Assembly: GCA_947442625.1 (NCBI GenBank)
Contig: CANEWJ010000005.1
Span: forward strand, 1 to 44,277
Source of the DNA: Chitinophagaceae bacterium
GTDB taxonomy: Bacteria > Bacteroidota > Bacteroidia > Chitinophagales > Chitinophagaceae
Length of the DNA: 44,277 nucleotides
Direction: 5' to 3'
Shown here in pieces: positions 10,714 to 19,836 of the stretch (within the stretch, counting starts at the first letter, position 1; the number at the start of each line of letters is the position of its first letter). Both the position numbers and the translations under genes were made by a program. Below the pieces are notes generated by a model. The model was not told the DNA's origin, searched no databases, and worked only from the letters and a program-made list of their open reading frames with translations.

Positions 10714-12726
10714 TTAGCTATTCTTTTTTAAGCGAAACATTACCACGCCATGGTGAGGGATTAAAGTTGTTATTTTGCCCTTGAAAATTCCAAGGTCTTT
10801 TTGGCGCCAAACATCCCTGACCTTGAAATTGCCGACCAGGCCAATTTCATTAAAATTCAATGCGAATGTTTTGGGTTGTTCATTGCCCCACCGAAAATAA
10901 GATTGTGGTGTTTTTCCGTAACCGGCAATATTGAAGATTCCAACAGCATAATCACCATTCTCCAATTCTCGTTTCCATACCTGAAAACCATCTTTCTCCA
11001 TAACCAATCGTGCTGCTTTGCCAAGGGGATCCTGGTTGATGGCAATGACCTCGTCATTGGATAATAGGTTCAAGGTAAATGCATCCAACCGCTCAATCGG
11101 ACAACCGATCAACATGGGAGATGCAATCAGGCTGAATATGCTCACATGGCTGTACTGCTCATATGGAGTAAGTCTTGTTGGGTGTAAAACAGGCCCAATG
11201 GAAACATCCCCCAAAATCATCATGTCTGCATCACCCCAATGTCCTGGGCCTGTGTATGGCGACCATTTGTCTAATACAAAAGCGGTATTGAATAAACTGG
11301 TCCAACTGTCCTTGATGTCTGGACCAGTCCGATACATATTGGACAATCGTACCCATTCATTCACCTTTTCAAAGGGCGCATTGTTGGAAAGGCTCAATAC
11401 AATATCCCTTCCGGAGTGCTTTAGTGCAGTAGACATGCGTTCTGTTGAAGCAACATCAATGCGCCAGTCATATTTAAGAAAATCAACTCCCCAGGCAGCC
11501 ATCTGCCGGGCATCATTGGGTTCAAACGTATACTTGCCGATGCGGCTGTATGGCTGGCGATAGGGCTTGAAAAGTTCATGTGTTTCACCTCCGGTAGGAT
11601 AATCAGAGGAAGCACCTACATATCCACCATAGCTGGCAATGTAAGGTGTGGAATACAAACCAGCCTTCAATCCCATGCCATGGATCTGATCAATCATGCC
11701 CTTGATATCAGGAAACTTATCGTTGGGTTGCAATGCCGTATCTGGTCCACCGCGTTTGCCCATCCATGCATCATCCACATTGATATATGTCCATCCATGA
11801 TCAGCCAATCCGGTTTTTACCATGGCATTGGCCGATGCCAAAACTTTTTCTTGGTCAATCTCAGCTTCCCAGGAGTTCCATCCATTCCATCCAATGGGTG
11901 GCGTGAGCGCGATGGTATCCCCTATTTTGATGGTCAAGTTTTTGGTAACCTCGCCCAGTTTATTTTTTGCTTTAAGGATTACTTCATAAATGCCACGCTG
12001 GGCAACAGATCCCGTAATAATACCGGATTCAGCTGCTATTTTTAATCCGATCGGCAAATTCACTGCACTGAATTGTATCGGCCGCTGGCCAGTTGCTGCC
12101 ACCTTGAATAGAAAAGGATTGCCGGGACGGGCACCAAAAACCTTGGCAGTATTGATTTGTGGCGTATTTTTTGTCGCGGGCGTCAGTATGATTTGGGGAT
12201 CAGTGTTGGGAATATAACCAGGAGTAAACCCTTCATTAACCATCAACCTGGCATTGGCCCAGTTGCCATTGGTTCTTTTGTTGCCCAATCCTCCCACTGA
12301 ATCGGTAATCAATAAGCCCAGTTGCTTTACGCCTGTCAGGTCTACATCGATTTTGACTGCAGGATCTCCAACATTCATGGGTTTGCTTTGAAACAAGATT
12401 CTTTGATCGGCCAATACATAAAACGTAAGGGGTATGGCAGTATTGGAAGAATCATCAACACCCACTTCAGCAGAGAACTTCTTGGCGTTGCCATCCAACA
12501 TGAATGAAAGCACCGCAGGAGATTGTGCGCCAAAACCCCTGCTGAATGGAACACCTTTGATTTTGATGGTATTCTTCCAGTAATTGGACTTGGTGGATAC
12601 AGGTCTGATGCCTTCTGAATAAGTCTGCAAGGGCAGGTCGTCAAAAAAAAGTGTTTTTGTGTTTTGCGCCTTACCGCTTTGGCATAAGGTGAATACAAAA
12701 GCAAAAACCAATATTGAAAGCTTCAT
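10714..12726 (-). CDS. GH27 alpha-galactosidase with NPCBM and Ig-like modules
   Basis: Secreted glycoside hydrolase of 670 residues that should release terminal alpha-galactose. Order: signal peptide (about 1-20, ending GKAQ); NPCBM-like carbohydrate-binding module (about 22-165, with RGFGAQSPAVLSF); putative Ig domain (about 178-270, with LPIGLKIAAESGIITG); GH27 barrel from TPPIGWNGWNSWE (276) onward. The expected nucleophile is Asp420 in FLKYDW and the acid/base Asp470 in RTGPDIKDSW. A C-terminal beta domain follows. GH27 also contains isomaltodextranase and N-acetylgalactosaminidase, so substrate is inferred. The preceding PUR gene ends 69 bases upstream with a terminator in the gap, and there is no SusC/D pair beside it. 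Confidence 0.92.
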   Translation of the reverse strand: MKLSILVFAFVFTLCQSGKAQNTKTLFFDDLPLQTYSEGIRPVSTKSNYWKNTIKIKGVPFSRGFGAQSPAVLSFMLDGNAKKFSAEVGVDDSSNTAIPLTFYVLADQRILFQSKPMNVGDPAVKIDVDLTGVKQLGLLITDSVGGLGNKRTNGNWANARLMVNEGFTPGYIPNTDPQIILTPATKNTPQINTAKVFGARPGNPFLFKVAATGQRPIQFSAVNLPIGLKIAAESGIITGSVAQRGIYEVILKAKNKLGEVTKNLTIKIGDTIALTPPIGWNGWNSWEAEIDQEKVLASANAMVKTGLADHGWTYINVDDAWMGKRGGPDTALQPNDKFPDIKGMIDQIHGMGLKAGLYSTPYIASYGGYVGASSDYPTGGETHELFKPYRQPYSRIGKYTFEPNDARQMAAWGVDFLKYDWRIDVASTERMSTALKHSGRDIVLSLSNNAPFEKVNEWVRLSNMYRTGPDIKDSWTSLFNTAFVLDKWSPYTGPGHWGDADMMILGDVSIGPVLHPTRLTPYEQYSHVSIFSLIASPMLIGCPIERLDAFTLNLLSNDEVIAINQDPLGKAARLVMEKDGFQVWKRELENGDYAVGIFNIAGYGKTPQSYFRWGNEQPKTFALNFNEIGLVGNFKVRDVWRQKDLGIFKGKITTLIPHHGVVMFRLKKNS

Positions 12727-12744
12727 GATGAAAGGAGATTTTAT

Positions 12745-12773
12745 AAAAAAAAAGGGTGGAAAATTCCACCCTT
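12745..12773 (-). terminator. Rho-independent terminator after the PUR-domain gene
   Basis: A 10-bp perfect stem (AAGGGTGGAA, 12752-12761, with TTCCACCCTT, 12764-12773) is followed on the - strand by a T-run (complement of A at 12745-12753). It lies between the PUR gene stop and the GH27 start, so GH27 probably needs its own promoter or read-through. Confidence 0.85.
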
Positions 12774-12795
12774 GAATGTATGTAAAATTAACATC

Positions 12796-13290
12796 TTACC
12801 ATTTGTCAACTTCTTCTGATGCGCCGTTGTCGCCTTCTGTAATTGAGGGGGTTGATGATGCTGAAGGAGCTTCTGGTTCAGCAACTGGAGCTTCATCAAT
12901 TGGAGATACAATGGCTTCAACATCAGCAACCGGAGCAGCAGCTGGTTGTGAATAACCACCGCTGTAACCGCCTTCTCCGCCTTCGCCACCTTCCTCATCA
13001 TATTCATGGTTAAATGCATCAAAATCAAAATCAGGCATCAAGTCAGTTTTTACGTGATCCACTGCTTCATTCAATGCTTTCAAAAATTTATTGAAATCTT
13101 CTTTGTAGAGAAAAATCTTGTGACGATCATAACCATCATCATTGAAACGCTTTCTGCTTTCTGTAATGGTCAGGTAATAATCATTACCACGGGTAGTTCT
13201 GACATCGAAGAAATAGGTTCTTCTTTTGCCTGCCCTGATGCGTTTGCTGTAAACGCTGTCCATTCTTTTTTCGTTGTTGTCGTACGGCAC
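12796..13290 (-). CDS. PUR-domain (DUF3276) nucleic-acid-binding protein
   Basis: The first 80 or so residues (IRAGKRRTYFFDVRTTRGNDYYLTITESRKRF, HKIFLYKEDFNKFLKALNEAVDHV) match the bacterial PUR-alpha-like family, whose members bind single-stranded DNA or RNA; spirochaete homologues act as regulators. After about residue 105 the protein becomes a low-complexity tail of Glu/Gly runs, then Ala/Pro/Glu/Ser repeats to the C-terminal EEVDKW. The tail is probably disordered and resembles tails that recruit partners. A near-consensus promoter lies at 13329-13358 and a terminator follows, so the gene looks monocistronic. Its target here is unknown. Confidence 0.85.
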   Translation of the reverse strand: MPYDNNEKRMDSVYSKRIRAGKRRTYFFDVRTTRGNDYYLTITESRKRFNDDGYDRHKIFLYKEDFNKFLKALNEAVDHVKTDLMPDFDFDAFNHEYDEEGGEGGEGGYSGGYSQPAAAPVADVEAIVSPIDEAPVAEPEAPSASSTPSITEGDNGASEEVDKW

Positions 13291-13328
13291 AATTGAAGAT
13301 TTTGGTTATAGCAATTGGTTGGTCCCTA

Positions 13329-13358
13329 TAAAGATAGCATTGTTTTGGAATTGTCAAA
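13329..13358 (-). promoter_or_regulatory. Promoter candidate for the PUR-domain gene
   Basis: On the - strand a TTTG (-33, complement of 13355-13358) and TATCTTTA (-7, complement of 13329-13336) are separated by 18 bases. This is the best-spaced two-part match to the Bacteroidota consensus in the window, with one mismatch in the -7 box. It predicts a leader of about 30 nt. Confidence 0.5.
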
Positions 13359-13405
13359 ATTTAGTATTGCTTTTTTGGAACTGTTTTTTACCGCTAAAAA
13401 GCCCG

Positions 13406-15229
13406 TCATTGGGAGTTACCAGCGTCCATTTGCTGGGTTCTCAATAATTGGGCATAATACCCGTTGGCTTTGACCAAATCCTCATGGGTGCCTTTTTCTA
13501 ATACCATGCCATCCTCCATGACAATGATTTGATCAAAAACAAAAGATGGAAAAATCCTATGGGTGATGATGATGGCCGTTTTATCCATCAAATAATGGTT
13601 AAGGTTTGATGCAATTTTGTGTTCTGTATTGGCGTCTACAGCACTCAGGCAATCATCAAATATCAACAAGTCATTTTCCTTGGAAAGCGCTCTGGCAATG
13701 GATATGCGCTGTTTCTGCCCGCCAGAAAGCGTAACGCCTCGCTCCCCAATCATCGTCTCAAATCCATTGGGCAATGCTTCTACCTCCTCAAGGATTATCG
13801 CGTTTTCGGCAGCATTTTTTGCCTTGGAAATATCCTCCTCGCCGGAACTGAAATTGATGTTGTGGTGGATGGAATCGCTGAACAGAAAAACATCCTGGGG
13901 AACATAACTGACCAATTTTCTCAAGGAATCAAGATTGAGGCCTTTTATATTTTTCCCATTCAACCTGATTTGACCTTTCTGAGGATCAAACATCCGGATC
14001 AACAGCTGTGCTATAGTGGATTTGCCACAACCGGTCTTGCCAATCAATGCAATTTTTTCGCCGCGTTTTATGATGAGGCTAAAGTCCTTGACTGCCCTTA
14101 TCCCGGTATGAGGAAAGGTATAATCTACCGCATCAAACTCCAGCAGATCAATATGGTCAAGCCTTTCAGCGTCCTTGACATCGATAATATTGGAGTTGAT
14201 TTGAAGGAATTCATTGAGTCTTTTTTGGGAGGCTGCCGCCCTTTGGATATTGGATACCACCCAGCCAATGGCAGAGACGGGGAAAGTAAGCATGTTGATG
14301 TAGACCACAAACTCTGCAATCGTGCCAGCACTGATGCGGTGCTCCAGTTGATAGAGGCTTCCCATATAAATGGTCAGCAATGTGCTCAGTCCAATCAGCA
14401 ATCCAATGGCAGGAAAATAAACAGCTTCCATGGTAGAGAGTGCCATTCCACTTTTCCTATATTCTTCACTTTCAGCGTCGAAAAAACCCAGGGATGACTT
14501 CTCTTGGTTATAGGATTTAATAACCCTGATGCCTGAGTAGGACTGCTGTGCCAAACTGGTAAGGGTGCTCAATTGTGCTTGAATTTTTTCGCTTTTTTTG
14601 TTGATATAGCTGTTGACAAAATACATGGCAAAGGCCAACAAAGGCAATGGAGCAAGCACATAGGCAGACAAAAGGGCATTCTTTTTGAACATGTAGAAAA
14701 GACTGATCATTATCAGAATGGTGAGGTTGATCAGGTACATCAGGGCTGGACCAGTATACATCCTTACCCTTGATACGTCTTCTGACATGCGGCTCATGAG
14801 ATCTCCGATGCTGTTCACTTTATAAAATTGTGCATCCAGTTGCTGGAAATGTGCATATACTTCGTTCTTTTGGTCAAACTCAATATGCCGGCTCATGACG
14901 ATAATGGTCTGGCGCATCAAAAACATAAAAAAGCCCCTGATCAATGCCAATGCAAGCAAGACCAAACCGCAGGCCATGACCAATTGTGAAAAACCAAGCC
15001 CAGCATTTTTAAACACCCCGATACACCACTTGACCAAAGGATCAAAAAAGACCTTATCTGAAGGCATGGCCAGCGGATTGATTGCGCGTTGCACTTCATC
15101 TACTACAAAGCCTGTCATCTGTGGTGCCAGGATACCGAAATAGTTTGACACTAAAATGAATACGAACCCAAGTGTTAGTCTCCACCGGTATTTCCAGAAA
15201 TATTTATTCAGCTGTTTGAGTTCCTTCAT
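13406..15229 (-). CDS. ABC exporter, fused permease-ATPase (MdlA/YheI-like)
   Basis: The 607-residue half-transporter has six membrane segments (about residues 15-330) and a C-terminal ATPase domain with Walker A IGKTGCGKST, Q-loop YVPQDVFLF, signature LSGGQKQR, Walker B LLIFDD and an H-loop in IIITHR. The residue after Walker B, normally catalytic Glu, is Asp526 (codon 13652-13654), as in the degenerate subunit of heterodimeric exporters such as TM287 or BmrC. No partner half-transporter is adjacent. The open frame extends to 15376 across the opposite-strand tRNA gene, but the conserved protein starts with MKELKQLNKYFWKYRW at 15229. The cargo cannot be predicted; lipid or drug export is usual for the family. 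Confidence 0.9.
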   Translation of the reverse strand: MKELKQLNKYFWKYRWRLTLGFVFILVSNYFGILAPQMTGFVVDEVQRAINPLAMPSDKVFFDPLVKWCIGVFKNAGLGFSQLVMACGLVLLALALIRGFFMFLMRQTIIVMSRHIEFDQKNEVYAHFQQLDAQFYKVNSIGDLMSRMSEDVSRVRMYTGPALMYLINLTILIMISLFYMFKKNALLSAYVLAPLPLLAFAMYFVNSYINKKSEKIQAQLSTLTSLAQQSYSGIRVIKSYNQEKSSLGFFDAESEEYRKSGMALSTMEAVYFPAIGLLIGLSTLLTIYMGSLYQLEHRISAGTIAEFVVYINMLTFPVSAIGWVVSNIQRAAASQKRLNEFLQINSNIIDVKDAERLDHIDLLEFDAVDYTFPHTGIRAVKDFSLIIKRGEKIALIGKTGCGKSTIAQLLIRMFDPQKGQIRLNGKNIKGLNLDSLRKLVSYVPQDVFLFSDSIHHNINFSSGEEDISKAKNAAENAIILEEVEALPNGFETMIGERGVTLSGGQKQRISIARALSKENDLLIFDDCLSAVDANTEHKIASNLNHYLMDKTAIIITHRIFPSFVFDQIIVMEDGMVLEKGTHEDLVKANGYYAQLLRTQQMDAGNSQ

Positions 15230-15235
15230 GATGAG

Positions 15236-15243
15236 CAAAGTTA
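15236..15243 (-). promoter_or_regulatory. Promoter -7 box candidate just before the ABC exporter gene
   Basis: The - strand reads TAACTTTG, an exact TAnnTTTG match ending six bases before the ATG at 15229. The predicted start of transcription falls at or next to the ATG, again suggesting a leaderless or nearly leaderless mRNA. No clear -33 box. Confidence 0.4.
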
Positions 15244-15287
15244 TCAAACTGTGCTGAGGAGTTTTTAGATGATTTTTTGATGATTTC

Positions 15288-15318
15288 TTTATAATTCGAC
15301 TTCGATGTTTTACTTTTG
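15288..15318 (+). promoter_or_regulatory. Promoter candidate for tRNA-Ser
   Basis: TACTTTTG at 15311-15318 matches TAnnTTTG and ends four bases before the first base of the tRNA. A TTTA at 15288-15291, 19 bases upstream, is a one-mismatch -33 element. It occupies the 93-base gap shared with the divergent ABC exporter gene. Confidence 0.5.
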
Positions 15319-15322
15319 CGCC

Positions 15323-15405
15323 GGAGAGATGGCAGAGCGGTCGAATGCGGCGGTCTTGAAAACCGTTGACTGTCACAGGTCCGGGGGTTCGAATCCCTCT
15401 CTCTC
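15323..15405 (+). tRNA. tRNA-Ser (anticodon UGA)
   Basis: The acceptor stem GGAGAGA (15323-15329) pairs with TCTCTCC (15398-15404), with discriminator G at 15405. The anticodon loop CTTGAAA (15355-15361) has anticodon TGA at 15357-15359, flanked by CGGT/ACCG. A long variable arm follows, as in all type II serine tRNAs, and the T-arm is GGGGG-TTCGAAT-CCCTC with one G-U pair. The 3' CCA is not encoded. This tRNA reads UCA and other UCN codons. Confidence 0.97.
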
Positions 15406-15408
15406 CGC

Positions 15409-15531
15409 AGGTTCAAAAGCCAGCACATTGTGCTGGCTTTTTGTTGTTTTGTGCGAGTCTGAACCGAAGGTTCAAGCGAGTATTCAAAACAACAAAAGCC
15501 AATGCCACGAAGTGGCATGGCTTTTGAACCT
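15409..15531. repeat. Nested inverted-repeat element downstream of tRNA-Ser
   Basis: A 123-base block built from layered inverted repeats. The outer arms AGGTTCAAAAGCC (15409-15421) and GGCTTTTGAACCT (15519-15531) are perfect over 13 bp. The inner arms, 15435-15451 and 15485-15500, match over 16 bp with one extra T. A central hairpin TGAACC-GAA-GGTTCA occupies 15460-15474. Two further local hairpins lie at 15419-15437 and 15494-15525. No protein is encoded. The left hairpin can serve as the tRNA terminator. The whole resembles a non-autonomous dispersed repeat rather than a plain terminator, but copy number cannot be judged from one window. Confidence 0.7.
15415..15443 (+). terminator. Terminator of tRNA-Ser
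   Basis: The 8-bp stem GCCAGCAC (15419-15426) / GTGCTGGC (15430-15437) is followed by a T-run at 15438-15442. It begins ten bases after the tRNA end and forms the left part of the larger inverted-repeat block. Confidence 0.75.
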
Positions 15532-15621
15532 GAAATCCCCAAAAAGGGATCATGAAATAATCCCTATCATCCCAAAGCAATTGCCACTGAAGGTTGCTTC
15601 AACTGGCCAAAAATGATTTTG

Positions 15622-17484
15622 CTATTTTATCGGATCTATCTCAAACACCATTGCCGTTTTAGCAGGTACATCAAATTTTTGCTGAATGGATATCGTCTGA
15701 CCTGAAAAAATATTTCTCGCGTTACGGGCATTCCCAACGATTTCCTTGAAACGGGATGGATCAATTGATGTTGATTGCTCATTCCTGTTCAAAACCACCA
15801 TCACCTTTTCCTTGCCTGTGTATCGAAAATACACATAGACATCATTGAAGGGAGCAAAATGTAGGGTCTTTCCATTGGCAATGGCTTTGCTGGTCTTTCG
15901 CCATTGTGCAAGTGATTTAAAATACCCTTGCATCTCCATCTGAGCCTGTGCTAACCCTGAACCTGCAAATGCATTGCTTTTATCATCACCCCACCCTCCT
16001 GGCATGTCTGCCCTGATATAACCATGGTCGTCTGGATGTGCAGTGTTGTCCAATAGCACTTCAGTTCCATAATAAACCTGCGGAATACCCCTCAAAGTCA
16101 GTAGCGCAGTAATCGCCATTTTGGTCAATGACAAATCATTGCCCAATTGGGTATGCAACCTGTCCATGTCGTGGTTGTCTCCAAATATCAACAACATTGA
16201 AGGATCTGCATAGGCAAAATCATTGGCGATGGACTCATAGAGCAGGTTTAAACCCTTCCCCCATGTATTTCTGTTTTTTTGGCGAAGGGCTTCTACCAGT
16301 GAGGATTGCAGCGGAAAATCCATGGAAGAACCAAGACAACCCGTATAACCATCTGTATTCTTTTTCCCTTTTTGCCAATATGAGGTGATCAAAGGGTTGA
16401 GGCTCCATTCTTCCCCAACAAGGCTAAAATTGGGATATTCTTTCATGATCCTGCAGGCCCAGGCATTGAGCAATGGCTTTACACTATATCCATAGGTATC
16501 CAGCCTTATGCCGCCCAATTGTAGTGTTTCTATCCACCAAATGTTGTTCTGGATCAAGTAAGTAGCCATGAACGGATTCTCCCCATTCAGGTCTGGCATG
16601 GTAGGCACAAACCATCCTTTGGTCATCAGTTCACGGTCATATTGAGAAGCATTGGGATCTTGATTAACAGTTCGCACATGTGTTGTGATGCGCATAGAAT
16701 CGGCATAATTGATCCAATCCCGAAAGGGCATGTCTTTCATCCACCTATGGCCAGAACCAATATGGTTAAGCACAGCATCATAAACCAGTTTGATTCCTTT
16801 GGCCTTGGCCTTTTGAGCCAATTCCTTGTATTCTTCCATGGTGCCAAAACGGGGATCAACTTTGTAATGGTCTGTAATTGCATAGCCATGATAGGAATAG
16901 GCTGGCATGTTGTTCTCCATCAATGGCTGGGGCCAAATAGTGGTGTAGCCCATTGATTTTAAATAGTCCAGGTTATTTATCATTCCCCGTATATCACCAC
17001 CATGCCTTGCTCCATTTGTTTTTCTATCAACCTTGTTTTCAAGCATCCCCTCAATGGTGTCATTGCGCTGGTCTCCATTGGCAAAGCGGTCTGGGGTGAT
17101 CAAACATATAATATCAGCGCTGTTAAACCCATTGAATGCCTCTGGTGCCATTGCTCTTTTCAATAGTGTGTAATCAATTTTTTCAACAACAACACCATTG
17201 CGGGTAAAGAGAATAGGGAATGCCCCTGGCTGGGTTTTAGCTGAAATAATCAAATCAACAAACAGGTAGTTTTTTGAATCTCCTTTTGTGATTTTTTTGA
17301 TGCTTACGCCTGCATAATTGATAACAGGTTTTGTATTGGCAATGTCGTTCCCATTGACCATCAACTGCACGTTTTCATCTTTCATTCCCACCCACCAGTT
17401 CATGGGCTCAAGGTGTTCAATTTGTGAAAAGGAAGATTGGCTCGACAGTATATACAGCGCCAGCAAAAGGAATATTTTTTTCAT
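15622..17484 (-). CDS. GH13 alpha-amylase family enzyme, SusA/neopullulanase-like
   Basis: A secreted 620-residue enzyme that should hydrolyse starch-derived maltodextrins in the periplasm. It has a signal peptide (about 1-20, no lipobox), a Cyc-maltodext_N-type beta domain (about 22-110), and the GH13 barrel with all four signature regions: DAVLNH (236-241), GIRLDTYGY with nucleophile Asp329, LVGEEW with acid/base Glu358, and FGDNHD with Asp439. A C-terminal beta domain (about 535-620) closes the protein. It is the last gene of the susC-D-E-F run, which fits a starch function. A terminator-like hairpin between susF and this gene may lower its expression. Confidence 0.93.
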   Translation of the reverse strand: MKKIFLLLALYILSSQSSFSQIEHLEPMNWWVGMKDENVQLMVNGNDIANTKPVINYAGVSIKKITKGDSKNYLFVDLIISAKTQPGAFPILFTRNGVVVEKIDYTLLKRAMAPEAFNGFNSADIICLITPDRFANGDQRNDTIEGMLENKVDRKTNGARHGGDIRGMINNLDYLKSMGYTTIWPQPLMENNMPAYSYHGYAITDHYKVDPRFGTMEEYKELAQKAKAKGIKLVYDAVLNHIGSGHRWMKDMPFRDWINYADSMRITTHVRTVNQDPNASQYDRELMTKGWFVPTMPDLNGENPFMATYLIQNNIWWIETLQLGGIRLDTYGYSVKPLLNAWACRIMKEYPNFSLVGEEWSLNPLITSYWQKGKKNTDGYTGCLGSSMDFPLQSSLVEALRQKNRNTWGKGLNLLYESIANDFAYADPSMLLIFGDNHDMDRLHTQLGNDLSLTKMAITALLTLRGIPQVYYGTEVLLDNTAHPDDHGYIRADMPGGWGDDKSNAFAGSGLAQAQMEMQGYFKSLAQWRKTSKAIANGKTLHFAPFNDVYVYFRYTGKEKVMVVLNRNEQSTSIDPSRFKEIVGNARNARNIFSGQTISIQQKFDVPAKTAMVFEIDPIK

Positions 17485-17555
17485 CGAATGGGTTTAGGTG
17501 TTTTGCTGAAATATTAAAAGTCTTTGCAAATAAATAAATGCGCGTTGAATCCAAG

Positions 17556-17580
17556 AAAAATGCCCCTCATTTGAGGGGCA
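17556..17580 (-). terminator. Hairpin between the susF-like gene and the GH13 gene
   Basis: A 9-bp perfect stem (TGCCCCTCA, 17561-17569, with TGAGGGGCA, 17572-17580) is followed on the - strand by five Ts. It sits 21 bases after the susF-like stop and 71 bases before the GH13 start, so it either ends the susC-F message or attenuates read-through. Confidence 0.8.
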
Positions 17581-17601
17581 TCAAGTGTTGAATAGGTTAG
17601 C

Positions 17602-18990
17602 TTATTGCTTAACTATTTTATACGTGTAGAAACCAGGATTGGTGAGATCAAGACTGATTCTGTAGGTACCAGCTGAAGGCAAGACAAGGTTGGCACCATC
17701 GCCTTCCAATGAATTGTCTGCACCATTGTCTCCTAAGTTGATACCCCAATCACTGTTGGCCCTGAATTTGAATTCTTCCTTCCCAGTAACTGTAACCTGA
17801 CCTTCCCAAACGTTGCTGCTGTTTAAGGTCATCGTCACATCACGCCCCCATCCTGTGAAGCCACCAATCATTGTCCAGGTAGTTCTAAGAATAGAGAACT
17901 TGTTGGTAGTTGTATTGGCATTGATCCTGTAGTAACCAGCACCTGGGAATTTCATGTTACCACCAGAGGTGCTGAGGTTTCCACCGCCACCATCACCATA
18001 GGCTGTTCCAGCCCAATCCGGTTGATTGGTGAGTTTGAACTCATAGGTTCCACCTGATTTTACGAAAACATACCCTTCATGAACACCATCTTTCTTGGGA
18101 GATGCAAGCTGTGGAGCCTGACCAGGATTCCATCCTTGATAATCACCTGCAACATACAGTAGTCCATATTCCTGAACCAAGGTCACAGAAAACTTACCAC
18201 CCTGAAAATCAAGCCTGATTTTGTAGGTTCCAGTTTTATCAGGACCTGCAAAATTATCACTCAGGTTAAAACCGAAGTCACCGCCTTTGTTGATACCAAC
18301 AGCATTGTTGTCTTTCACAGAATACTTGTTGCTCCAATCACCATTGACTGGCAAACAAAGGTATTGCTGTCCGCCCTTCATGTAGAAAGTACCTTCGTAT
18401 GTAACGGAATCTACGCGGGTAAACTGTTGTGAAGGGACAGGAACAGGATTGTTCCAGCCGCCTGCAGTTGCACTACCAACAAGGAAAAGCATTCTAGAAG
18501 ATGGAGGCAATACCTTGGGAGGAATAACATAAGGTGTGATTCTCAAGGCAACCGCATTGGACATCTTCCTTTCATTATTGTTTCCCATAGAAGAGACAAC
18601 CCTTGCTTCAATGTTGTATTGCCTGTTGTATGCGAATCCAAAACCAAGGGCAATATCATTGAGTTCTTTCGCAGTAAAACTTGCGGTTCTGGCTCCAATC
18701 ATCACCTTTTGCGCAGCTCTAGAAAAATTCCTTCCTGCAGAGTCAATTTCCACTATGTATTTTACAGTGTTGGAATCAACTGAATAGTTGGGGTTTGTCC
18801 ATGAGAATGAAATTGCAGTCTTGGACGAATCAGCCATTACCGAAGCGATGGTATTGGTTGAAGCGGTAAGCGTAGCATTACCGGCAGGATTGTAAAGCTT
18901 CAAGGGTTCAATCTTTTCACATGAAGATGCCATGAAAGCAGCCAAAAACATGTAAAAGCCCAAGCGAATATATTTTTTCATACTGTTCAT
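17602..18990 (-). CDS. SusF-like surface starch-binding lipoprotein
   Basis: A lipoprotein of 462 residues with a signal ending MASSC. After an N-terminal SusE/F Ig-like domain (about 35-155) come three related binding modules: about 165-270 (MLFLVGSATAGGWNNPVPVP), 275-370 (LLYVAGDYQGWNPGQAP) and 372-462 (WTMIGGFTGWGRDVTMTL). The Trp-rich GDYQGW/GFTGWG loops are the usual sugar-contact positions in SusE/SusF modules. Three modules match Bacteroides SusF. The protein should sit on the cell surface and hold starch near SusC/SusD. It starts 18 bases after the susE-like stop. An alternative start is three codons in. Confidence 0.87.
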   Translation of the reverse strand: MNSMKKYIRLGFYMFLAAFMASSCEKIEPLKLYNPAGNATLTASTNTIASVMADSSKTAISFSWTNPNYSVDSNTVKYIVEIDSAGRNFSRAAQKVMIGARTASFTAKELNDIALGFGFAYNRQYNIEARVVSSMGNNNERKMSNAVALRITPYVIPPKVLPPSSRMLFLVGSATAGGWNNPVPVPSQQFTRVDSVTYEGTFYMKGGQQYLCLPVNGDWSNKYSVKDNNAVGINKGGDFGFNLSDNFAGPDKTGTYKIRLDFQGGKFSVTLVQEYGLLYVAGDYQGWNPGQAPQLASPKKDGVHEGYVFVKSGGTYEFKLTNQPDWAGTAYGDGGGGNLSTSGGNMKFPGAGYYRINANTTTNKFSILRTTWTMIGGFTGWGRDVTMTLNSSNVWEGQVTVTGKEEFKFRANSDWGINLGDNGADNSLEGDGANLVLPSAGTYRISLDLTNPGFYTYKIVKQ

Positions 18991-19008
18991 TTTAAGTTGT
19001 TTACCAGA

Positions 19009-19836
19009 CTATTGTCTGGTTACGGTGAATCTACCTGTTTGAAAATCAACGACAATTTTATAATTGCCTGCAGTGGCAGGTCCAGGGAATGCAGGATCAG
19101 CATCCTTTTTCTCAAAAGTGCCTCCTGTAGCAGTACCCTCTACCATATGGTATTGGGTTCCCCAAACACCATTTTCCTGTATCAACTTGTAAGCACCAGA
19201 TTTCAATGCCACAACCAATTCATATTGTGTATCTGAAACCTTGGTGAATTTCTGCGTTGTTACAAATGGGGCTGGCAAAGGATTGTTCCAACCTGAAGCT
19301 ACAGCATCACCAATGATCCAAAGGGTTCCCATGGTTGGAACAGGCACTTTGGGAGGAGGGGCAAATGGTGTGACGTTGAACCTCATCACATTTGAAGTAA
19401 GCGAGGTGGCAGCAGCGCCAAGCGATGCAATAACCCTTACTTCAATGGCTGCAGGCGTATTTAGTCTCAGCTGAAGATCACTGAGGATGATGTTGAATTC
19501 TTTTTGTGTGTAGGCCACAGAAAGTTCCTTGCTGATAGAAACAGCCTTCTTGTTGGCTCCGGAAAAACTTGATCCAGCAACGTCAATTTCGAGGGTGTAA
19601 ACGACATCCTGGCTGTTGATGCCAGAAGCGAAATCATATTCTGGATTGGTCCAGCTGAACTTTACTCCAGGATTGTTTTCAGTAGCAAAACCCAGAGGAA
19701 TCGTGCCAGTAACAGAGGCGGCCAATACAGGCGCAGTTCCTCCTAGGAATATTTCCCTGTCTTCTTCCTTGCTGCATGATGCAAGAAAAACCAAAGATGA
19801 AAGGGCTAGGATAAGAGGTTGAATGATTTTTTTCAT
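19009..19836 (-). CDS. SusE-like surface starch-binding lipoprotein (single binding module)
   Basis: A 275-residue lipoprotein with signal MKKIIQPLILALSSLVFLASC. It has the same N-terminal Ig-like domain as its downstream neighbour (residues about 35-155, SWTNPEYD, VYTLEIDVAGSSFSGANKKAVSI) but only one C-terminal module (TLWIIGDAVASGWNNPLPAP). Both proteins share the SGWNNP/GGWNNP turn and the stretch around it, indicating tandem duplication. Bacteroides SusE carries two binding modules, so this copy is shorter. It starts 26 bases after the susD stop. Role in starch capture is inferred from the locus. Confidence 0.85.
   Translation of the reverse strand: MKKIIQPLILALSSLVFLASCSKEEDREIFLGGTAPVLAASVTGTIPLGFATENNPGVKFSWTNPEYDFASGINSQDVVYTLEIDVAGSSFSGANKKAVSISKELSVAYTQKEFNIILSDLQLRLNTPAAIEVRVIASLGAAATSLTSNVMRFNVTPFAPPPKVPVPTMGTLWIIGDAVASGWNNPLPAPFVTTQKFTKVSDTQYELVVALKSGAYKLIQENGVWGTQYHMVEGTATGGTFEKKDADPAFPGPATAGNYKIVVDFQTGRFTVTRQ

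Follow-up and report, generated by a model that had tools for sequence, protein, structure and literature searches.

The non-coding block at 15409–15531 of the window (the whole analysed stretch of 44,277 nucleotides, genome G000) is rather probably a copy of a Bacteroidota-wide family of ca. 150-bp cassettes, devoid of ORFs, that sit on tRNA 3' ends and were probably spread by GIY-YIG nucleases. The family and its mobility are well supported; we infer the GIY-YIG nuclease as the putative mover from its associations with tRNAs and with the repeats. Family members consist of an intact tRNA followed by three hairpins within an outer stem, a linker, a T-arm copy in which G57 is replaced by a hairpin and, sometimes, the remaining tRNA 3' end; shape is conserved in the family more than sequence.

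The element behind tRNA-Ser(TGA)

Features of the locus (window positions):
15323–15408, + strand: tRNA-Ser(TGA), intact (ARAGORN; Rfam tRNA, 58.3 bits)
15385–15397, + strand: T-arm GGGTTCGAATCCC of the tRNA-Ser(TGA)
15409–15564, + strand: whole element, i.e., layered hairpins, linker and T-arm hairpin (covariance model R1)
15408–15422, + strand: 5' arm of the outer stem, 15-nt perfect inverted repeat, partner at 15518–15532
15518–15532, + strand: 3' arm of the outer stem, pairs with 15408–15422 (100%)
15415–15441, + strand: hairpin 1, terminator-like on the + strand
15439–15497, + strand: central imperfect hairpin, perfect arms 15439–15451 and 15485–15497 (fold)
15460–15474, + strand: apical hairpin TGAACC-GAA-GGTTCA of the central hairpin (sequence reading and fold)
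15495–15525, + strand: hairpin 3, GAA loop with C-G closing, terminator-like on the − strand
15546–15564, + strand: T-arm copy GGGATCATGAAATAATCCC (GGGATC-ATGAAAT-AATCCC) (pattern match)
15565–15578, + strand: possible vestige of a half-unit, TATCATCCCAAAGC, cf. TAGCATCCAAAGCGACAGC in G030 (weak, by reading)

The original prediction had placed a layered inverted-repeat block immediately 3' of a tRNA-Ser, and this position was confirmed: the intact tRNA-Ser(TGA) ends at 15408 and the element follows directly on the same strand. The three hairpins were found again, enclosed by the 15-bp outer stem, and the word GGTTCA/TGAACC does occur four times in the 123 bases (GGTTCA twice, TGAACC twice). 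Both sets of arms exist, with corrected lengths: the outer ones, given as 13 bp, measure 15 bp with the last tRNA base included, and the inner ones, given as 16 bp, are perfect over 13 bp (15439–15451 and 15485–15497). The range needed extension, the conserved unit running on to 15564, 33 bases past the end first assigned; the predicted echo of the tRNA T-arm is real, but it is to be found in this added part, namely the hairpin-bearing copy at 15546–15564; the GGTTCA words in the outer stem do not represent it.

In the copy GGGATCATGAAATAATCCC, as compared with the tRNA T-arm GGGTTCGAATCCC, T54 is A and G57 is replaced by ATGAAAT, forming a small hairpin; a second tRNA copy with a hairpin break is present, of which the acceptor part is missing and the T-arm alone remains. 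The gap between the tRNA and the T-arm copy is 137 nt. No sign of coding and no ORF of note were seen within the element on reading of the ORF list; mechanical ORFs cross the block, e.g., 15305–15616 (+ strand), which spans both tRNA and repeat, and from such ORFs gene callers may annotate false proteins behind tRNA-Ser. The neighbouring amylase-family gene (15622–17484, − strand) is convergent with the tRNA-Ser. Carbohydrate genes surround the tRNA on the − strand (10714–19836): an alpha-galactosidase, a cyclomaltodextrinase-type amylase and two SusE-like proteins; an ABC transporter and a DUF3276 protein lie in the same interval.

Family, tRNA placement and conserved shape

In its own genome (2.60 Mb, 211 contigs, 92% complete) the block is single-copy by sequence: blast on both strands gave, beyond the block itself, a next best match of E 0.5. 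The original prediction would have reduced a single-copy, poorly conserved sequence to two adjacent terminators; single-copy by sequence it is, but poorly conserved it is not. In two genomes of the same genus, its identity is 93% (G009) and 92% (G002). By structure a second copy was found in the window genome (G000:C10:22118–22277) behind tRNA-Leu(GAG), and its T-arm copy TGGATCACTGAAAGTAATCCA fits that tRNA. Other species carry a different sequence of the same plan behind tRNA-Ser(TGA) or tRNA-Ser(GGA); at four loci (L025, L027, L028, L042) a simple terminator alone stands behind tRNA-Ser(TGA). Between G000 and G030 the upstream flank is 87% identical and the elements merely 73%. No exact-sequence copy was found in the plasmids or phages searched. 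Stand-alone tandem runs of right half-units, which extend from AAAGCGACAGC or GGAGAACAAAAAAGCC up to the T-arm hairpin, were seen at L021, L022, L023, L024 and L031, which suggests that the right half may multiply separately.

Motif scan: The 19-base T-arm motif GGGNTCATGAAATAATCCC was searched in one genome per species; 110 stretches were found against ca. 7.5 expected by chance. Eighteen of them were dropped before the counts as a betaproteobacterial repeat (Massilia, Noviherbaspirillum). A same-strand tRNA ends ≤260 nt upstream in 53 of the remaining 92 stretches, as against one with a tRNA downstream and none with a tRNA on the other strand; the hosts of the 53 are tRNA-Ser (42) and, for the rest, Arg, Lys, Pro, Val, Glu and Leu, and the motif starts 114–165 nt past the tRNA in 45 of them. 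No tRNA was found ≤260 nt upstream in the other 39, some of which lie outside Bacteroidota; some come from contig ends or are tandem second copies, and some are probably chance. As for autonomous versions, with other genes between tRNA and motif, an apparent transposase was seen by eye between two copies at L196, and other ORFs at L161 and L119; these candidates were set aside.

In the dropped repeat (Massilia timonae, M. pinisoli, Noviherbaspirillum; L109, L111, L113 and 15 further stretches) the same 18 bases stand in another context, gagcctgtcagaatttctgtgtgg...GGGGTCATGAAATAATCCCgaaagg; at a guess, it resembles an insertion-sequence end. The one match in viral contigs (L367) is of this Massilia type and was set aside as lying outside the tRNA-hairpin family.

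Covariance model R1: 34 elements, the window copy among the seeds, were used (157 positions, 47 pairs; alignment A1, 34 of 39 non-redundant elements, L153, L158, L181, L193 and L203 omitted). The window copy, a seed, scores 91.5 bits over model positions 1–157; tandem copies are also detected. At E 0.001, and with the window genome counted, the element is present in 25 of the 41 genus genomes and in 29 of the 395 of the phylum sample, with up to seven copies per genome. Placement was evaluated on 68 non-seed matches with loci (10 seed or motif-selected matches and those with no locus left out; one of the 68, L252, is 91% identical to a seed): 54 start ≤12 nt from a same-strand tRNA 3' end, 44 of these ≤2 nt, and none of the 68 lies at a tRNA in the wrong orientation. 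Among the remaining 14, several stand behind an apparent tRNA-end remnant and some are weak matches. In the non-redundant set (<80% identity mutually and to the seeds) 45 of 57 are tRNA-adjacent. As the tRNA is absent from R1, this adjacency is an independent check. Seven copies stand behind seven different tRNAs in G292; of the seven in G374, six are behind an intact tRNA.

Fold: The RNA folding proposed with the original prediction gave −68.3 kcal/mol for the block against −33.2 ± 3.7 in 200 shuffles, far beyond them (z −9.5; 0/200 as good); the opposite strand also folds better than its shuffles (z −8.6). The arms AAAAGCC and GGCTTTT may, on our reading, allow rival pairings, hairpin 1 plus hairpin 3 versus outer plus central stem, in the manner of a four-way junction.

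Covariation, likewise proposed, was found among the copies of the relatives. RNAalifold on 8 tRNA-Leu copies gave 37 consensus pairs, 9 of them with two-sided changes (hairpin 3, four; central hairpin, three; T-arm hairpin and hairpin 1, one each). In the pairwise test (13 pairs; structure from one sequence only; null, uniform random substitution) broken pairs stayed below random expectation in 13/13 comparisons, the narrowest being 3 vs 3.3, and two-sided changes were above random in every pair of ≤90% identity; the best figures were 6 two-sided changes vs 0.9 at random and 5 broken pairs vs 15.6. Both pairs of the window copy with its two closest relatives (92–93% identity) gave 0 two-sided changes. 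A MAFFT-only alignment of the family (L114, L146, L211 and L216 omitted in addition to the A1 omissions) gave almost no consensus in RNAalifold; since MAFFT alone aligns the family poorly, covariation was assessed on close relatives and not on the model-fitted alignment A2. The inserted T-loop hairpins differ with pairing kept (ACTGAAAGT, ACCGCAGGT, ACCGGAGGT, ACACCGGAGGTGT); 17 of the 27 T-arm hairpins that passed a strict rule (56 of the 68 non-seed matches tried) have a GNA loop.

The strong fold, the compensatory changes and a similar architecture across a phylum would also be found in a structured host RNA, co-transcribed with the tRNA and with its fold under selection. This explanation is unlikely, for the distribution is patchy (25/41 and 29/395 genomes), the tRNA hosts are many and different, and copies occur at unrelated loci and in tandem arrays. 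In Rfam only tRNA reached the gathering score, both for window positions 14800–16200 and for 8 loci of relatives; among the Bacteroidetes RNA motifs listed by Weinberg and others in 2010 (PMC2864571), the part of that paper drawn on here describes none behind tRNAs.

Right end: In 52 of the 54 tRNA-adjacent matches (L264 and L274 left out) the sequence at the right end of the element was scored against tRNA tails; the tail of the own tRNA outscores the tails of all tRNAs for other amino acids in 19/52 elements (mean 9.0 vs 5.9). The local score for the own tail is ≥10 in 17/52, with a maximum of 17 identical bases, and <10 in 35/52. Many elements, that of the window included, keep the T-arm alone at the right end; in some relatives the hairpin-bearing T-arm copy continues into the remainder of that tRNA's 3' end. 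At L207 the left and right copies seem alike from T loop through tRNA end to terminator; a portion of the terminator belonging to the tRNA can thus be duplicated as well.

Tyrosine-integrase integration is classically marked by a tRNA 3' end duplicated from the T loop onward, and the right ends would fit the remnant of such an element in a tRNA gene with attL and attR left behind. We regard this as distinctly improbable. The spacing of 114–165 nt in 45/53 stretches leaves no room for an integrase, nor does the 137-nt gap at the window locus offer any between the two copies of the tRNA end; no evident integrase was seen, by reading, among the ORFs of three far cases. The fold is conserved, and the spacing of the half-sites differs, because the hairpin insertion lengthens the T-arm of the right copy.

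Mobility and candidate nucleases

Near-identical copies occur at non-homologous sites in relatives: 97% identical copies behind tRNA-Leu(CAG) in G014 and tRNA-Leu(GAG) in G008, and 90% identical copies, that in G030 behind Ser(TGA) and that in G014 behind Ser(GGA); the sequence type of the window was found behind tRNA-Ser(TGA) only. The tRNAs of the two pairs are 84% and 71% identical, respectively, and blastn of the 800-bp flanks on either side gave no match in either pair. The element family is mobile. Gene conversion between related tRNA genes within one genome could give copies at different tRNAs; targeted insertion is favoured over it because of the unrelated flanks and the range of isoacceptors. 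Two readings offered by the original prediction, a non-autonomous mobile repeat and a remnant of a tRNA-targeting element, are supported when combined.

Nested inverted hairpins, and T-arm hairpins that are often GNA-looped (17/27 parsed), recall a REP/REPIN-like repeat on which a Y1 (HUH) transposase would act through hairpins in single-stranded DNA. That origin is very unlikely: Y1_Tnp is absent from the window genome (0 matches in G000) and is likewise lacking in every one of the 9 genus genomes that have the motif GGNNCATGNAATAATCC, while present in 23/41 overall, and it occurs in 14/25 R1-positive vs 9/16 R1-negative genus genomes, i.e., with no association; furthermore, to our knowledge REP models predict no copied tRNA 3' end. 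The Y1 transposase was rejected as mobiliser, its presence not tracking the repeats.

Least probable of all is a pair of ordinary adjoining terminators, with hairpin 1 serving the tRNA and hairpin 3 the convergent amylase-family gene on the − strand: the terminator scan does flag hairpin 1 on the + strand and hairpin 3 on the − strand (3 sites vs 0.6 ± 0.8 in shuffles), but the outer stem, the hairpin-bearing T-arm copy, the tandem arrays, the tRNA specificity (54/68) and the near-identical copies at unrelated sites are left unexplained, and as a full account the terminators are ruled out by the family-wide matches, the tRNA placement and the copies at unrelated loci. The earlier remark that the structure is too elaborate for a terminator is upheld by the outer stem, the T-arm copy and the family. 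Hairpin 1 has the GC-rich stem and T run of a Rho-independent terminator on the + strand, accounting for part of the element only, and probably still ends the tRNA transcript.

GIY-YIG genes: The remark in the original prediction that small GIY-YIG nuclease genes often follow tRNA-Ser in Bacteroidota proved relevant for relatives. In 22 of 48 small GIY-YIG loci, the best-scoring ones and no random sample, a tRNA lies ≤500 bp away, always on the same strand, as compared with 0/12 for large ones; the other 26 of the 48 have no tRNA within 500 bp, which counts against the link. Its statement that no such gene is visible here also stands: the window element encodes no GIY-YIG nuclease and none follows it, and in the window genome (92% complete) no small GIY-YIG gene was found, the only two PF01541 matches being in frames of 609 aa and 478 aa. 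Ten genomes with the element were searched: G185, G189 and G257 have large GIY-YIG frames only, and G249 adds a weak 117-aa match. These absences, too, count against the link.

In relatives GIY-YIG genes and repeats were found side by side, once within an array. Behind tRNA-Ser(TGA) in G197 (L313; G197:C30:108766–110837) two repeats, a GIY-YIG gene and two further repeats follow one another, and the middle unit (Pfam GIY-YIG, 62.6 bits) has a tRNA 3' end and hairpin 1 like the repeats. The right end of the tRNA-hairpin family, GGGATCACCGGAGGTAATCC, comes after a GIY-YIG gene (51.4 bits) in G374; in G294 a GIY-YIG cassette lies 5' and a repeat 3' of a single tRNA-Ser. Searching 76 GIY-YIG sources (some overlapping) with R1 gave a clear element in only 2 distinct loci, L349 and L352, and a weak one in L085 (25.9 bits), which again counts against the link.

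Many small GIY-YIG genes are bounded on one side by an intact tRNA and on the other by a partial second copy with a palindrome break; the GIY-YIG loci were judged by eye, a regex for T-arm hairpins having been dropped after it missed known cases. In L079, L084 and L064 it is the T loop that is broken, in the first two past GGTTC and in the third past GGTTCGAA; the tRNA-hairpin family uses this loop as well. The palindromes in most of the GIY-YIG cassettes read near tRNAs are different ones, in several cases placed in the D loop or the anticodon arm, which speaks against the link, and a common preference for tRNA genes could account for the co-location of GIY-YIG genes and elements. Palindrome-broken partial tRNA copies flank GIY-YIG genes on one or other side of the intact tRNA (L065, L072, L076, L078, L081, L083, L086, L087, L090); CCTGCCTGCCGGCAGGCAGG is an example of such a palindrome, from the D loop of tRNA-Leu copies by GIY-YIG genes.

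For the tRNA-linked GIY-YIG endonuclease SegB of phages T4/T6, the part of PMC13096335 drawn on here describes cutting and homologous recombination that lead to tandem repeats of tRNA and nuclease genes, in cis and in trans. From the tRNA-linked GIY-YIG loci, the shared array, the T-loop breaks and the SegB precedent we infer that the repeats are putative non-coding passengers of GIY-YIG nucleases.

Proposed mechanism and likeness to known systems

A nuclease would cut the tRNA gene within the T loop, and repair would supply both the cassette and a new tRNA 3' end, leaving the tRNA whole; the hairpin in the second T-arm would block renewed cutting of that copy. The likeliest nucleases would be small GIY-YIG proteins, the genes of which occupy the same type of slot at the tRNAs of relatives, and the hairpin-only cassette would be a non-autonomous passenger of the GIY-YIG version. 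Counting against this scheme, the intact tRNA copy would stay cuttable, which the proposed mechanism leaves unexplained. Further points against the preferred reading are the missing acceptor part at the window locus, the own-tail scores <10 in 35/52 elements, the 39/92 motif stretches with no tRNA ≤260 nt upstream and the lack of two-sided changes between the window copy and its two closest relatives.

Short, non-coding, palindromic, dispersed repeats with no enzyme of their own are known as REP/REPIN and MITEs. The element resembles them in all these properties and differs in its location at tRNA 3' ends, its single orientation, its copy of the host T-arm or tRNA end and the lack of any tracking by Y1. 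Integrative elements at tRNA att sites restore the tRNA and duplicate its 3' end; here, too, the tRNA is whole and its 3' end duplicated, whereas the element is small and integrase-free, and a hairpin is inserted into the second T loop. Integron cassettes form arrays with folded, sequence-variable recombination sites (attC), a likeness by analogy only; unlike them, the element is anchored at a tRNA gene. With SegB, a free-standing homing endonuclease, are shared the tie of a GIY-YIG gene to tRNA genes and the tandem repeats, so far as the portion of PMC13096335 used here goes; in contrast, SegB is a phage protein gene, and the element is non-coding and chromosomal, with a conserved fold, a hairpin-broken T-arm copy and a cleavage that is putative.

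Small non-autonomous mobile repeats and nuclease homing at tRNA genes are both known already. No description of their combination, of the T-loop hairpin or of the phylum-wide fold was found in searches of open-licence PMC papers, and a genuinely new cassette system is possible. A wider reading is offered tentatively, as one that we hold to be more doubtful than the assignment of the block to the family: a new kind of mobile DNA, in which tRNA genes would serve phylum-wide as landing platforms for cassette arrays, each cassette closed by a T-arm or 3'-end copy under hairpin protection; GIY-YIG genes would be carried by some of the cassettes, and by others only a conserved four-way-junction fold that lets the nuclease or its repair intermediate move them in trans, and the tRNA end would be both target and boundary.

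If true, one mechanism would account for tRNA-side intergenic repeats and for many small GIY-YIG genes in a major bacterial phylum, and it would allow tests of homing-type movement of non-coding passengers, and of selection that acts on the shape of DNA or RNA over sequence. For annotation there is a warning in it: copied tRNA sequence can give rise to spurious ORF calls across tRNA ends of this type.
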